Assembly: GCA_019096195.1 (NCBI GenBank)
Contig: JAGTXK010000087.1
Location: 248,001-312,000, forward strand
Reading direction: 5' to 3'
Source of the DNA: Boletus sp. NGJ
Lineage: Eukaryota > Basidiomycota > Agaricomycetes > Boletales > Boletaceae
Length of the DNA stretch: 64,000 nucleotides
A program made the translations under genes and the position numbers. This document shows positions 37,369 to 44,100 of this stretch, piece by piece. The notes beneath the pieces were generated by a model. It saw only the letters and a list, made by a program, of their open reading frames with translations. It was not told the origin of the DNA and made no database searches. How positions within the stretch are numbered: the first letter of the stretch is position 1; every line of letters begins with the position of its first letter.

Positions 37369-37750
37369 AACTACAAAATTCAGGTTGACGACGGCCAAAG
37401 GCGAAAAGTGGTGGGCATCACACTCATTGAATAGACAAAGACTGGAAGAGCTGCGATGCGCTGGATTTGGACAACTACATCCTGCACCTTACTACTACGA
37501 CCACCTGCGCCGTTTTCTATCATGGGGCTTCTGACCATTGTGCACAAGAACAGGGGGAATGTCACTGCTCTTCGACCTGTACCTGGCAGTCGAGTTCCAT
37601 GTCGGCCGGCATGAATACGATGTCGTTGGAGCGTGGAGAGCTATCAATGCAGACATTGTCCTGGAGGGCGGCCAGGAGATAGACAACATAGTAAGTGACC
37701 ACCATTTACACTCCAATGAACACAATTACTAGTGAGACACACCCGCATTA
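37369..37750. other. Left flank of the transposon, unassigned coding-like frames
   Basis: Both strands carry short open, splice-flanked frames. On the plus strand, an ATG at 37559 opens about 44 codons (FDLYLAVEFHVGRHEYDVVG) and ends at a strong GTAAGT donor at 37691. The matching acceptor (ATACAG) lies just beyond the right end of the transposon, at 40918-40923. I could not identify a protein. Confidence 0.3.
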
Positions 37751-37847
37751 CAGCTGTTTGCAAATCTCTGTGGAAAACGAATTCTGAAAAGTCGCGCCTC
37801 GGAGACAGCCGGGAAGGGACCCCGGGCGCAGCTGAGTGGGTAGCCTG
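37751..37847 (+). repeat. Left terminal inverted repeat
   Basis: 97 bp, matching the reverse complement of 40819-40915 at 95 positions. It starts immediately after the TA at 37749-37750. Confidence 0.95.
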
Positions 37848-37908
37848 TGTAAGCATAGATTGCTGTAGCTACATGTTGGTTCAATTTGCCTAGTACTACC
37901 TCACTTGC

Positions 37909-39496
37909 ATGTCTGAACAACCAGCCGAGAGGCAGTATGCCTTTACTGTTGCCCTCACTGTCTACTCTGCACTCAAGCAATCATCCAAGGGCAAGAGTAC
38001 TACCAAACGACAAGAGAAGTCCCTCAAAACCAAGGAATTGCTTTTCCCACTCAACAAGGACAACTATCTTGAATTCCTTGAAAGTATTCTTGAGAAGCAC
38101 GGTCAGACTCAGTACAAGATTTCTAGCAAGCAATGGTTCTCATTCAAGTTCACTGTGGCGAAGACAAAGAGGTATCATTCCTACTAGTACAGTTGTGTGC
38201 AGGTCACCTGGCTCACAATTTTTTTAGCCAGCACACGAGTGAGGCGATGGACGTCAATAACGAGTCAGACTACAAAGAGATGGTCCAAAAAATTCATGAC
38301 ACAGCCAGTGCCAGTGACCTTGGTGTAGCAATGAAAATTTTAGTCAACATGAAGCATGTCGAGAAACTCCTGTTGCATCAAGCAAACAGCCGCTCCGGAG
38401 ACGAAGAGTCAAATATATCTGACAATAACCAAGTATTTTTTTTTTACCATAACCTGGATATTCTCTAATACATTTTCTAACAAGCCCTCACCATCCTGAT
38501 CAGCTTCAGATCTAGACATGTGCCTTGTGCAATGGCACATGAAGCTTGCAAAGATACACAAAGACAGTGATGATGGTCACCTGACATATATTGTGCCATT
38601 GGGTACCGCTATTCCGCTTACTCCAGCGATGGTGCTCAACTGGGCCTGTGCTTTGGTATAGTATCTCTGTAGATTCATGCTAAAAATATCTAATTTGTCC
38701 ATAGGAGGAAGGCCAGGCAACGTTGAACATGCCGCCTAATATCCCTTTGTTTGATGCTGCCAACAAGGCAATGTTTCTACACCCAGCATGCAAGGCACAG
38801 GCTCAGAAAGTTGCTTCACAATCCCCACCATCTCTGAGTCCAAACGTTGCGCCGGACATCAACTCACTCACATCTGTCATTCTTCTTCAGACTTTAGCCA
38901 ATCTTTCATCTGTAGCTTGTAATCCAACTACCGCCACAACGCCAACAGTTCCAGCTTCAACGACGCCCATTTGTTCTGTCCCCGAAAGATCCACCTCCCC
39001 TCCAATTCCGTCCCCTTCCCAGCTTATGCAGTTTCTCAAATATGCGGAGACAGAGCTCCATGTTGAGAACACTACTGTATTTGAGCGGAAACTTGCGGAG
39101 CAGCACATTGGCCCTGACATCCTCCCCAAAATTGATGACAGAATACTTGCTGTGGAGATTGGGATTCCGGCTAGCGATATAATCCATCTGAAAAAGGGTT
39201 CTATCGCCTGGTGGAATGGTCCTGATGCAAAGCATAAGCATAGTAACACTGATCAGAGTCAATTCAGGTCACCTACTCATCCACCTCAGAAGAGGGTCAC
39301 TTATGAGAAGAAGTACCATGATGGCAGCGACTGCCACTTCACTGGATCTCCGATGATTGCTGGGGATGACAATGGACTGAAAGACTACGATCTTTGGTAC
39401 CAGTCTACAGATCATGGGACATGGCTTCCTGTTCCAAGAGGATTCATTGTTTGTGAGGATGGTGATGACGACGCTTTAGATAGTTTCTTCAAGTAA
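37909..39496 (+). pseudogene. Accessory gene of the transposon, SAM-like C-terminal domain
   Basis: Starts 61 bp inside the left repeat. Exons: 37909 to about 38170, then from about 38228 to 38431 (ending SDNNQ before a GTATTT donor), a third from about 38483 to ~38655, and a last one from about 38706 to 39496. They read continuously except for one TGA where CGA (Arg) is expected, near 38499. The product would be about 430 aa. The N-terminal part is basic and helical (KTKELLFPLNKDNYLEFLES). The middle has YIVPLGTAIPLTPAMVLNWA. A Pro/Ser/Thr linker follows, then a helical segment (LAEQHIGPDILPKIDDRILA, VEIGIPASDIIHLKKGS) that resembles a SAM domain. The tail reads WLPVPRGFIVCEDGDDDALD. No nuclease or known transposase motif was seen. 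Its role in transposition is unknown. It may be a DNA-binding or targeting partner. Confidence 0.7.
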
Positions 39497-39540
39497 TAGA
39501 ACAATATCCGCATCGTTAGCCTTACAAACTATTTTCACTG

Positions 39541-39646
39541 TGAATTCGTTATGTCACCATGAATTTGCTATGTCACCGTGAATTTGTTATGTCGCCATGA
39601 ATTTGTTATGTTGCTGTGAATTCATTATGTTGCCGTGAATTCGTTA
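39541..39646. repeat. 19-bp minisatellite, about 5.6 copies
   Basis: Tandem units of the form TGAATTTGTTATGTCGCCA with a few substitutions per copy. It lies between the stop codons of the two convergent transposon genes. Confidence 0.9.
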
Positions 39647-39723
39647 CAACAACTATACATTCATTGTGGGAGTAATTTGCAAGGCTTTACAACTAACAAC
39701 TACAGTACTAGGTCCATTTCTCA

Positions 39724-40784
39724 CTACACGATGTAGCCTGATGCCTGAAAAAAGCCTTCTGCTTTGTCAGGAGTAATGCTCTGACAAGCATGTACAATTG
39801 TGGTCATTGAGAAGTCATCAGGGTAGCGCCAAAAGTATGCCTTGATCACTGAGAACACTTGTTCAATCGGATTATAATCGGGAGAGTAGGGGGGGAGGAA
39901 GATAAGCTTGCAAACTAGTAGTAGTTAGTACTATGTAAAGAACAACGTCACATACATATGGTGCATATCTTTAATAAGCATGCAGATCTCCTCAGTCTTA
40001 TGGATGCGGCAATTGTCCATGACGATAACACTACGGGGACCAGGATACAGGTTGGTGAAAGGCATCTGTACAAAAGATAAGTAAATACTATACATGAACT
40101 ACGAAGACGTACCACATGTTCCTTCAAAAATCTCACGAAGCGCTGACTATCAACCAGTCCTTCTATGATATCGTACACAATAATACCATCAAAAGTGATG
40201 GTGGGAAGGATTGAGAACCTTGTTCCTCGAACAAAGCATCTGCTGACACAGCAGTGGACACCCTTCCCTGACCAGCCATATTGGCAGGTGGATGTCTGCT
40301 TATCCTTGGCTGCTTCGTCAATAAAAAGAAGCATATTCAGATCCAGCACATCAGCAGCAATCTGATTCATATAGATCGCATGTGTCTCTTCGTTTCATTC
40401 TGCGGCTGCACATAAAATGACTTTATGTGTGATGGAAAGACATTGGAGTGTTCAAAGAAGATTTGAAAGTGTTACAAACTTTTGATGCTTGGCCCAAAGT
40501 TCACACTGAAGCTCATCAAGGTAGATGGTGTTGCGATTCTGGATAACAGTGGAAATGAAAGCAATGTCAGCAGAGGTGAGGAGTTGATGGCGCCCAGTTG
40601 TGAGAGAATATTTGCTCGGATTGGTGATGGTGCCATATTTCGAGTACAAAGAGAGCGTCCTGTAAACTAGCAATTTCTTGATACCTAGTATGCAGCAGAT
40701 ATCATTGACACTATGGTTGTCATTGTACAGGAGTGGGATTCGAGCTTTGACGTTGGGAGGCACGACATGGTAGGGCCCTGGCAT
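39724..40784 (-). pseudogene. DDE transposase of Tc1/mariner type, broken
   Basis: Cut-and-paste transposase. From the ATG at 40784 the N-terminus carries a helix-turn-helix (IPLLYNDNHSVNDICCILGI). Then come LDELQCELWAKHQ and a linker with LSITHK, and the catalytic domain with the three acidic residues in family context: LLFIDEAAKDK, VIVMDNCRIHKTEEI and PPYSPDYNPIEQVFS (Asp, Asp, Glu with 34-residue type spacing). The C-terminal segment AYFWRYPDDFSMTTIVHAC closes at 39724. Two in-frame TGA codons (40452-40454 and 40395-40397) fall where CGA would give the family's Arg. One short intron (GTACGT..ACAG, near 40067-40112) joins in frame. The last join near 39915-39955 is one base out of phase in my reading. 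The gene is therefore broken in this copy. Confidence 0.85.
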
Positions 40785-40818
40785 GGGAGTGCAAAACAAA
40801 TGCACTTATTCAGCTGTG

Positions 40819-40915
40819 CAGGCCACCCACTCAGCTGCGCCCGGAGTCCCTTCCCGGCTGTCTCCGAGGCGCGACTTTTCAGAATTCGTTTTCCACAGAG
40901 ATTTGCAAACAGCTG
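40819..40915 (-). repeat. Right terminal inverted repeat
   Basis: 97 bp, inverted copy of 37751-37847 with two mismatches. It is followed by the TA duplication at 40916-40917. Confidence 0.95.
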
Positions 40916-41171
40916 TAATACAGACCCAATGTGGTCTGGCCTGCAATATGGGTTCAAAACTACATTGAAGGTGCCAGACGAGGACTGGCAGCTAAGCATC
41001 TGGGGCTTTCCAGTACGAAACGCAAGTTTGTTCATATGAGTGTCTACTAGTATATAGTATCATACATTCTTCCGTTCATGGCACTCATTCCAACCTGATG
41101 TATTGATCCATTCCAGTTAGTTTGTAGACGATACATGCCATGTAAATATGCAGTTCATGTGACGAATGTGC

Positions 41172-44100
41172 CTAGCGACGACCTGATCGTGATGGAGCAG
41201 CAGTTTGTTTGAGAATCGCCTCCCTCGCCTCCTCCACAGCAGATTCCGAACCTACAATCAGTGTGAGTTTGATGCCCTAATCGAGGTAGTGTGAGGAACA
41301 TACCAATGATAACAATGATATTATTGTCTCTGCTGACAGTAATGTCTGCACTAGTCTCAGCACGCAGACGAGCCACATTGGAGCCCTTTGACCCAACGAT
41401 TCTTGGGAATACAGAACGATCAGCGAGAGTCAGGAAGCCGACATGAGTCATTGCTTCAGCCTGTTCAATGGCTGTCTTGATATCACTCTGTGCGCGCTCG
41501 AGACCAAAGGCGTCCCTTGCTTTCAGCGTCCATTCGGATTCACCTTCCTCCGCGTCCTGGTAATTAGGAACAACCTGCCAGCTTGATTCCGGGGGGTCTT
41601 CCTCCGCTTCGTCAATCCGAGCAGCAGCATTTTGCGGAGGATGGGTGGGTACCGCAGATTTTTGGGGATGAGCAGATTGGTCGACTTGTATACCATATGA
41701 TCGGAGGTTACGGAAGAAGCTCCCCTGCTGCGAGATTGCATGGTGATATTTCAAGGGTACAGACACGGCGGCGGTGAACAGCTCTACAGGGGTCGATGCG
41801 TTCTGAACCCGCGCCTGGCGAGGAGGTCAATCGCTGCAGTATCTTCATTACATCAGGTAGCATACCTTGAGTTCGCTGATTGCAGCTTCGCAAGCAGAGC
41901 GGGATCCGGAGACTTTGACGATGTCAGCGGGATCCGCATCTTTGACTTCATCTGCGTTGACAGCTTCTCCTACATGGTGGTAGGATCGAGAACCAGGAAA
42001 CTGTACTTGGACACATGTACGGGCTTGCAATTCATTCAGGTGCTGACCGCCTCTGCCAATGAGATTACGATGCTGGGCTGCTGGAATCTCGGCAGCCAGC
42101 ACTACGCGATCTCTCAGAGTAGCAGCCGTCTTCTCGAGTTCCGCCTTGATTTTGTTGACAAGAGCAGGTTCTCCACGAAGACGCACTTCCTCACTGGGCT
42201 CACCCTGCCGAGGGCTGATATCATGGTTAACTGGGGGCTGACCACCGTCAGAAATTTACTTACAACCGAACAAGTCCTGCTTGCAGCTTGGAATCGGATG
42301 GACCACCACAACGAATAATCAAGTCTTTCAAACCCTGACCACCAGCCCCAATGATGGTCCTATGGAACTTGGTCTCGATAACAAGTGATGCCAACGTTTC
42401 CTCACCGACTTGATCAGAGATTGCCAAAATAGCAGTTTTGGCAGCGCTGATGGCTTGCTTGGTTCCACGAACAGTAATGTTAGTCACAGCGTTATTGTCA
42501 TCCGTGGCCTTATCAATGTCGATCTGGGCGCCTGTGTCGTCCTTGATCTCGTTGATGCTCGCACCACCTTTACCGAGAATACGAGCAACAGCACGAGTCG
42601 GGACAGTGAACTTGAGAACGTTGTTAGACTCTTTTTCAAACTCTAGAGCATCGAGAAGTTCGGATTTAGCACCAGCTACACCCTTCTTGCCACCCTTGAC
42701 GAGAACTTCGTCAGGCCTAAGGGCTTCACGAGTCTTGTTTTCGCCGTTTTCCGAAGATCCCCGGGGGAATGTGATCTTGACCCCGTATTTCTCCTCCAGG
42801 CGAATGGCATATTTACCATTCTGGCCGATCAGGGAAGCATGGAATTGGGCAGGGATTTTGAGGGTTTCCGATGTCTCGTCTGTCTACATTGTATGTCAAT
42901 GACGTGTTGGATGTGGCAACTCCGAAGAACTAACCAATCTCTCGACCTGAGTTAAGATGCGCTTCTTGGCTTCCTCGACGTTCTCCTTACGTCCTGTGAT
43001 CTGAGCATGGCGTCAGTTCTATCCCACAACTTGTGCATAGTAACCGACCTTGAATTTGGACTTTTGGTGAAAGGGCTTCTTCTTCTTGGTACTGTCCTTC
43101 TCCTTCTCCTCAACCTCATCGTAAAGGTCCACTCTGACACCAAGTTGGTCTCGCAGCTTGTTAACACCAACTCCCTGCGCACCAACAACTCGACCGACAT
43201 ATTCCTTGTCAATCTCGAATTCTGTAGACTAAAATATTGTGCGTAGATAACACAAACAGTTTGAAGATTCTAGTTGGATTCACTTACGTAGCTGCTGACA
43301 ATAGCATCATTTTTGGCACCCTCCACGACCCGCAGGATTTCTTTGACAGCACGATCGACATCTGCGCTGACCCCACGGATCAGGATGACATCCTGACTGG
43401 ATGGATCGCCTGCCTCAGCACCGACTTTGATCAACAGGCCCATTTCTTCGCCAATGATTCTGGAGGTACCAGTCATACGATATTCACGGCTGTGAATATA
43501 TACCACTTACGCGTTGAGAGTGGCACCGTCTTTGCCAACCACTGCCTCATGCCAACGTTTCTCGACAGTTATTAGCTCGCTCCTGACATCAGCAGCATCC
43601 TTGGCCATCCTGAGCAATTCCGCAGCGACGTCATCCAGATGCTTCTCTTTCTCAACAGGCGAAGGCGAGGCCAAAGGGGAAAATGGGTCATAAACCAGGA
43701 TAACCGAAGATTGCTCCGCAGACTCGGGAGGGAAGAAAACTAAAATATTGTGAACCTCGTGGAACTGCTTCAACCTGAGTGATGTCAGAGAGACTTCTGA
43801 AAATGTGTAAGTAAGAATTCACTTTTTCGCATGTTTCCCCAAGATAACCCGGTGAATGAGCCAATCAATGCAAACCTCCCTCGTTGCGCCGATTAGTTTA
43901 CCAAGAAGTTCCGAAACTTGTCTGACGACAGCATCCACCAGCGGCTTCTCTCCGACGATATCAATGTTGAGGACTGAGGCCTGATCGATCGTCATTGCAG
44001 ATGGCGTGAAAACCGAAATACCAGGATGAGCAGCGCTGAGGGTGTTAGGGTAGTCGATGCGCGTGATGTAAGTCAAGAGTTGACGTGAAACCGCGATAGG

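Follow-up and report, generated by a model that had tools for sequence, protein, structure and literature searches.

A decayed Tc1/mariner-type element in Boletus sp. NGJ with a convergent, long-maintained second gene

The window analyzed here is a stretch of 64,000 nt from Boletus sp. NGJ (contig JAGTXK010000087.1), in which positions 37751-40915 are occupied by a two-gene element of 3,165 bp. The element is bounded by inverted arms of 101 nt (37747-37847 and 40819-40919) that are 98% complementary; setting aside the TA dinucleotides and the bases beyond them leaves a terminal inverted repeat of 97 nt, in agreement with the 97-bp inverted ends described in the initial annotation. Between the repeats lie a plus-strand gene, referred to here as P2, and a minus-strand transposase gene, arranged convergently with their 3′ ends facing each other and their start codons close to the repeats, at 61 nt for P2 (left repeat) and 34 nt for the transposase. 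A tandem array between the two 3′ ends is possibly a protein-binding site, or a product of chance. The window copy is dead: P2 contains one in-frame stop and the transposase two, and neither gene is open. In an adjoining minus-strand open reading frame (window 41155-41826), one stretch resembles what we take to be a KH domain motif. The coordinates of the element are summarized in Table 1.

Table 1. Features of the two-gene element in the window
Feature	Position	Strand	Basis or remark
TA target-site duplication, left	37749..37750		T at 37748 precedes; duplication seen at relatives' empty sites
Left terminal inverted repeat, 97 nt	37751..37847	+	Arm comparison
P2 exon 1, basic N-terminal part	37909..38171	+	Spliced alignment; conserved in relatives
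P2 exon 2	38228..38432	+	Spliced alignment
P2 exon 3, in-frame stop at 38497-38499 in window copy	38485..38655	+	Spliced alignment
P2 exon 4 including stop codon; SAM-like segment about 39040-39200	38705..39496	+	Spliced alignment and profile match
19-bp tandem array, 5.6 copies	39540..39646		Between 3′ ends of P2 and transposase genes
Transposase gene (DDE_3)	39724..40784	-	Start 40784, stop 39724-39726, introns 40112-40066 and about 39951-39907
Right terminal inverted repeat	40819..40915	-	Arm comparison
TA target-site duplication, right	40916..40917		A follows

The minus-strand gene encodes a DDE transposase, as had been proposed: the window protein, with its stops entered as X, matches DDE_3 at E = 2.1e-24, and all four family members compared match this domain as well. 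The spacing between the second aspartate and the glutamate is 35 residues in the related copy L009 when read by eye (DD35E), the window model being uncertain at the intron concerned. Matches of the N-terminus to helix-turn-helix families are weak (HTH_28, E = 0.092; HTH_23, E = 0.025 in one of four members). The two in-frame stops, located from the frame ends, lie at 40452-40454 and 40395-40397, in a stretch that relatives read through, and the donor site of the second intron listed in Table 1 looks damaged when the window sequence is read by eye. A 76-nt intron suggested by the spliced alignment was rejected, since L030 reads through the segment without a gap, making it coding sequence that holds two stops. 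The DDE_3 domain, TA duplication, terminal inverted repeats and a spacing within DD34-36E place the element in Tc1/mariner; the single-gene state that is usual for the group, but does not define it, is broken by the convergent P2.

P2 was modeled by spliced alignment as four exons and 476 codons, so that the convergent orientation, three introns and position 61 nt inside the left repeat given in the initial annotation all stand, while its estimate of about 430 codons does not. The introns measure 56, 52 and 49 nt, and their phases (2, 0 and 0) recur in the long P2 copies; because the three introns recur in relatives, the second gene is not a chance reading frame. In the case of L011, L013, L022 and L024, the aligner placed a fourth gap of 38-39 nt in P2. 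Every long P2 copy modeled has at least one stop. The predicted protein consists of a basic N-terminal region, a linker rich in proline, serine and threonine, and a SAM-like C-terminal segment; the basic character noted earlier for the N-terminus is evident in the window copy, whose first 90 residues comprise 16 lysines and arginines against 8 aspartates and glutamates.

To characterize the C-terminal segment, a profile built from 12 copies was compared with PDB sequences, the best match being the SHD2 domain of SLA1 (3idw, E = 9.1e-5) and the next lying at 0.27; with a profile of the whole of P2, 3idw was the sole match (E = 0.011). The SAM-like C-terminus proposed in the initial annotation is in this way backed by a sequence profile, which supports a putative SHD2-type SAM domain. 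About 50-55 residues align, the rest of P2 having no SLA1 match, and the hhalign probability of 95.9 for the P2 C-terminus against SHD2 concerns the same 55 residues already matched and is non-independent. SAM_2 of Pfam was found in one of the 12 C-terminal members at E = 0.057, below the Pfam cut-off, and the unrelated MptE-like family came ahead of it, also in one of 12, at E = 0.0052. AlphaFold, given the single window sequence as input, modeled the C-terminus with a mean pLDDT of 33.5. SLA1 is an endocytic adaptor, and its SHD2 is described as a SAM fold that tends toward a helical polymer (PMC9499636, consulted in part). By analogy, P2 may multimerize through its SAM domain in the cell.

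The N-terminal 150 residues have no reliable relative in profile, Pfam and Foldseek comparisons. For exon 1, the AlphaFold model (again from the single window sequence) has a mean pLDDT of 56.0 and a strand-strand-helix-strand-strand order, for which Foldseek returned nothing below E = 1.9. A PB1 or beta-grasp fold was considered for this region on a PB1 match in one of eight members (E = 0.13). A Cut8 match in exon 1 (E = 0.0039) was dropped, being missing from the list for the eight N-terminal members, and the two unrelated families returned by NCBIfam for P2, in one member each (best E = 0.0044), were taken as noise. On viral contigs, neither P2 nor the transposase found relatives with the one search tool used.

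The element is repetitive: the genome that holds it (32.8 Mb, 141 contigs) contains at least 82 matches to its DNA, at 65-100% identity, a figure that includes cross-matches of one repeat to the other. To define the relationship between the two genes, 56 fetched loci, chosen for matching the element, P2 or the transposase, were scanned together with the window using profiles of both proteins; matches with E up to 1e-5 and gaps under 5 kb were joined into clusters across 48 loci (L001-L048), and the eight empty-site loci gave no match. Outside the locus set lie element fragments on C23, C97, C100, C1:42851 and C44:390966 and remote transposase matches on C89 and C65:426492. The 43 clusters obtained contain both genes in 31 cases, P2 alone in five and the transposase alone in seven. 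By majority strand, 30 of the 31 pairs are convergent; the exception, C114:489885, has absorbed an adjoining transposase fragment, and the pair that properly belongs to it, in L004, has the convergent arrangement. Two of the 31 (C141 and C38:23393) retain just 43-48 residues of P2. Several clusters have the look of segmental duplicates (C79 twice, C71 twice, C59/C127), which puts the number of independent insertions below 31. The two genes stay together across a family that diverges down to about 35-45% amino-acid identity.

Most of the unpaired P2 clusters appear to be parts of broken elements, and four of the five look like pieces of interrupted copies. C114:22706, with P2 up to position 342, complements C114:3850, which has P2 363-469 and the transposase; C126:53136 (P2 only) and C126:77936 (transposase only) have end flanks in common with the pair at C114:849856; and C127:121243 and C92:78561 complement partners on their own contigs, C127:132485 and C92:69362. 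The last of the five, C89:11170, corresponds to the palindromic remnant L028 (C89:11026-14703), in which both arms carry P2 exon 1 and the inverted flanks are identical; an assembly effect could account for this. Besides C126:77936, the transposase is found alone in C35 and C50, apparently duplicates of each other, in C91, and in three clusters that belong to remote families (C45, C82 and C127:158355). Among the 51 matches to P2 exon 4 in the genome, a set restricted to the best candidates, no free-standing host gene was recognized. Repeat arrays resembling GGATTA and CATAGT surround copies L003, L017, L018, L023 and L028.

Insertion was studied at the ends of the copies and at empty sites. 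Each of the 14 elements that retain both ends has its TA in the context T|TA|A, one of these elements being the palindromic remnant L028. The joined flanks of 12 insertions were searched in the same genome and paralogous empty sites could be read for four: L013 (L049), L009 (L051-L054), L025 (L055, L056) and L011 (L050), each with a single TA, which confirms for the family the TA duplications noted in the window; the search returned no empty site for the window insertion itself. The whole left flank was matched for L009 only, the left-hand match for L013, L025 and L011 being 20-37 nt. The empty sequence is TTAA for L013, L009 and L025 (L056) and TTAT for L011; a deletion falls at the junction in L055 and immediately next to it in L051 and L052. 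Empty sites and flanks taken together therefore indicate that insertion by the family duplicates TA, with T|TA|A as the preferred context.

Differences between close copies are dominated by transitions, mostly C to T or G to A relative to the majority base, with transition-to-transversion counts of 187:20 in L004 and 63:1 in the window copy, and CpG observed/expected ratios range from 0.15 to 0.53 in the six copies compared. This decay looks methylation-driven or RIP-like. Because it adds mostly transitions, selection was measured with transversions only, as the ratio of transversions at codon position 2 to those at 4-fold degenerate sites. In 16 between-subfamily pairs, which share copies and are not independent, the ratio for P2 is 0.25-0.55, with a bootstrap upper bound below 1 in 15 and the pair L011-L012 as the exception (0.30-1.22). 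The corresponding values for the transposase are 0.10-0.79, from 16 pairs that are likewise not independent, the upper bound falling below 1 in 15; L033 and L029, lacking most or all of the transposase, are poor material for this comparison. Within subfamilies, the P2 ratios of 2.28 (0.41-3.49) and 1.46 (0.64-5.00) have intervals that span 1 and are compatible with neutrality, while the transposase gives 0.61 (0.00-1.68) in one pair and has no 4-fold transversion in the other. P2 was thus under purifying selection between subfamilies, with none detectable within them, and selection therefore acted on both proteins as long as the family was mobile and ceased once copies died. Distances between copies run parallel in P2 and the transposase (r = 0.81, 0 of 2000 permutations, 12 copies), which fits genes inherited together. 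The window element is best read as a decayed copy of a two-gene Tc1/mariner family that would once have been autonomous.

Linkage and selection bear directly on why P2 is present. The initial annotation suggested that the partner is kept inside the element, and the 31 two-gene clusters and the purifying selection on P2 bear this out in one genome. P2 was long maintained by selection, and a partner kept until the copies decayed probably, for that reason, helps or controls the movement of the element. We give middling credence to the proposal that P2 is an accessory protein encoded by the element, multimerizing through its SAM domain and aiding the assembly, targeting or control of transposition. 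The transposase, with its weakly helix-turn-helix-like N-terminus and its DDE_3 domain, would cut the element and paste it at TA within T|TA|A; P2 would multimerize via its C-terminal SHD2-type SAM domain, and the multimer would bring the transposase together with the element ends (or the target) in a single complex, or control the activity of that complex. A SAM domain fits regulation or escape from silencing as well as it fits assembly.

The alternative that survives best, although we think it rather unlikely, is that P2 regulates the element instead of helping the reaction, acting as a SAM-polymerizing repressor or copy-number control at promoters that the element carries near its repeats. 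Transcription regulators such as TEL and Yan are described as having SAM domains that polymerize to control transcription (PMC9499636, consulted in part). Both start codons, at 61 and 34 nt, are close to the repeats, and the basic N-terminus of P2 could bind DNA, but Pfam searches found no DNA-binding family in P2, and losses of a self-limiting gene should be frequent, whereas 31 clusters retain the pair against seven with the transposase only. It is improbable, in our judgment, that P2 is an anti-silencing factor shielding the element from host silencing or C-to-T mutation, a role for which the VANC proteins of Mutator-like elements are a precedent: the heavy C/T and G/A transitions and CpG loss imply that such pressure existed in the host lineage, yet the copies decayed nonetheless, and Pfam searches recovered no family of this kind in P2. 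We rate it as equally improbable that P2 helps in a different way, for instance by bringing the transposase into the nucleus, as with the second protein of PIF/Harbinger; two-gene DNA transposons that encode a partner protein are an established solution and the P2 N-terminus is basic, but no Myb-like domain was found in P2 by Pfam. The idea that P2 was picked up from the host by chance and carried as a passenger, which the usual one-gene state of Tc1/mariner would favor, is highly implausible and is rejected within this genome, where both genes occur together in 31 of the 43 clusters, none of the 51 best-candidate matches to P2 exon 4 was recognized as a free-standing host gene, and purifying selection extends across subfamilies whose P2 differs from that of the window copy at 35-48% of its residues.

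Tc1/mariner elements serve as the textbook example of a one-gene transposon, normally carrying the transposase alone, and are thought to be widespread because they need little else. A lineage with a selected partner could show what such elements gain from a second protein, and whether a polymerizing SAM domain can serve transposition; partner genes of this type may also be present in fungal gene catalogs, taken for uncharacterized proteins of the host. With ordinary members of the IS630-Tc1-mariner superfamily, the Boletus element has the DDE_3 domain, terminal inverted repeats and TA duplication in common, and it differs in its selected convergent second gene and its length of about 3.1 kb, against 1.64 kb for an ordinary Tc1-type element nested in L025. 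PIF/Harbinger transposons are cut-and-paste elements that combine a transposase with a Myb-like partner protein and have a 3-bp target-site duplication; their transposase superfamily and duplication are different from the DDE_3 and TA of the Boletus element.

Parallels are also provided by TBE and Tec of ciliates, which are Tc1/mariner elements with more than one open reading frame: TBE has three, one of them for a zinc-finger protein, and a signature of purifying selection is reported for them, while Tec also has three, one for a site-specific recombinase, and repeats of about 700 bp (PMC7325037, consulted in part). Although multi-ORF like the Boletus element, they reside in another kind of host, the section of PMC7325037 devoted to them names no SAM-like partner, and Pfam searches matched P2 to neither a zinc-finger nor a recombinase family. 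Among mushrooms, MarorTcMar-18 of Marasmius oreades is a similarly long mariner-type family (3,972 bp) with a shorter relative seen inserting; in the parts of PMC9674265 consulted no second gene is described for it, and the comparison is by description only. A literature search, with subscription journals mostly and Repbase wholly outside its coverage, recognized no fungal two-gene Tc1/mariner element, and an unnamed Repbase entry may exist. Multi-ORF Tc1/mariner elements are known from ciliates, and the fungal form with a SAM-like partner was seen in the one genome studied.

Within this genome, remote Tc1/mariner relatives, 23-29% identical over most of the transposase with one stretch of L039 reaching 41%, also have a convergent second gene, at L039 (1893-5474), L044 (1202-5585) and L043 (2333-4703). 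L043 and L044 have a second gene in common, with a selection ratio of 0.47 (0.29-0.81) over 245 codons, and a third remnant of it lies on C117 (L059/L060), where no transposase was found in the stretch examined; L039 has a second gene of its own. Inverted repeats lie outside both genes in L039 and L044, with an outer TTACAG common to the two; none were found around L043, which is near a contig end. In hhalign comparisons of P2 with the second gene of L043/L044 and that of L039, neither the putatively SAM-like ends nor the N-terminus stood out from shuffled columns (an equally high score was reached by 14, 5 and 51 of 100 nulls), and a short middle motif alone did so (score 16.7 over 13 columns, probability 4.5, equaled by 0 of 100 nulls). 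Homology of P2 to these second genes is unproven. It is conceivable, though we consider it a long shot, that two-gene Tc1/mariner elements form a standing class here, whose transposases fall into at least three deep lineages (the P2 family, L039 and L043/L044) and whose partners would derive from one ancient gene with a SAM-like end, building a polymeric transposition complex and confining insertion to T|TA|A. The 1.64-kb Tc1-type element within L025 (1819-3457) has recognizable transposase frames alone. Many of the 150 DDE_3 matches scored in this genome have open frames of 350 residues, and other Tc1-type families may have been recently active.
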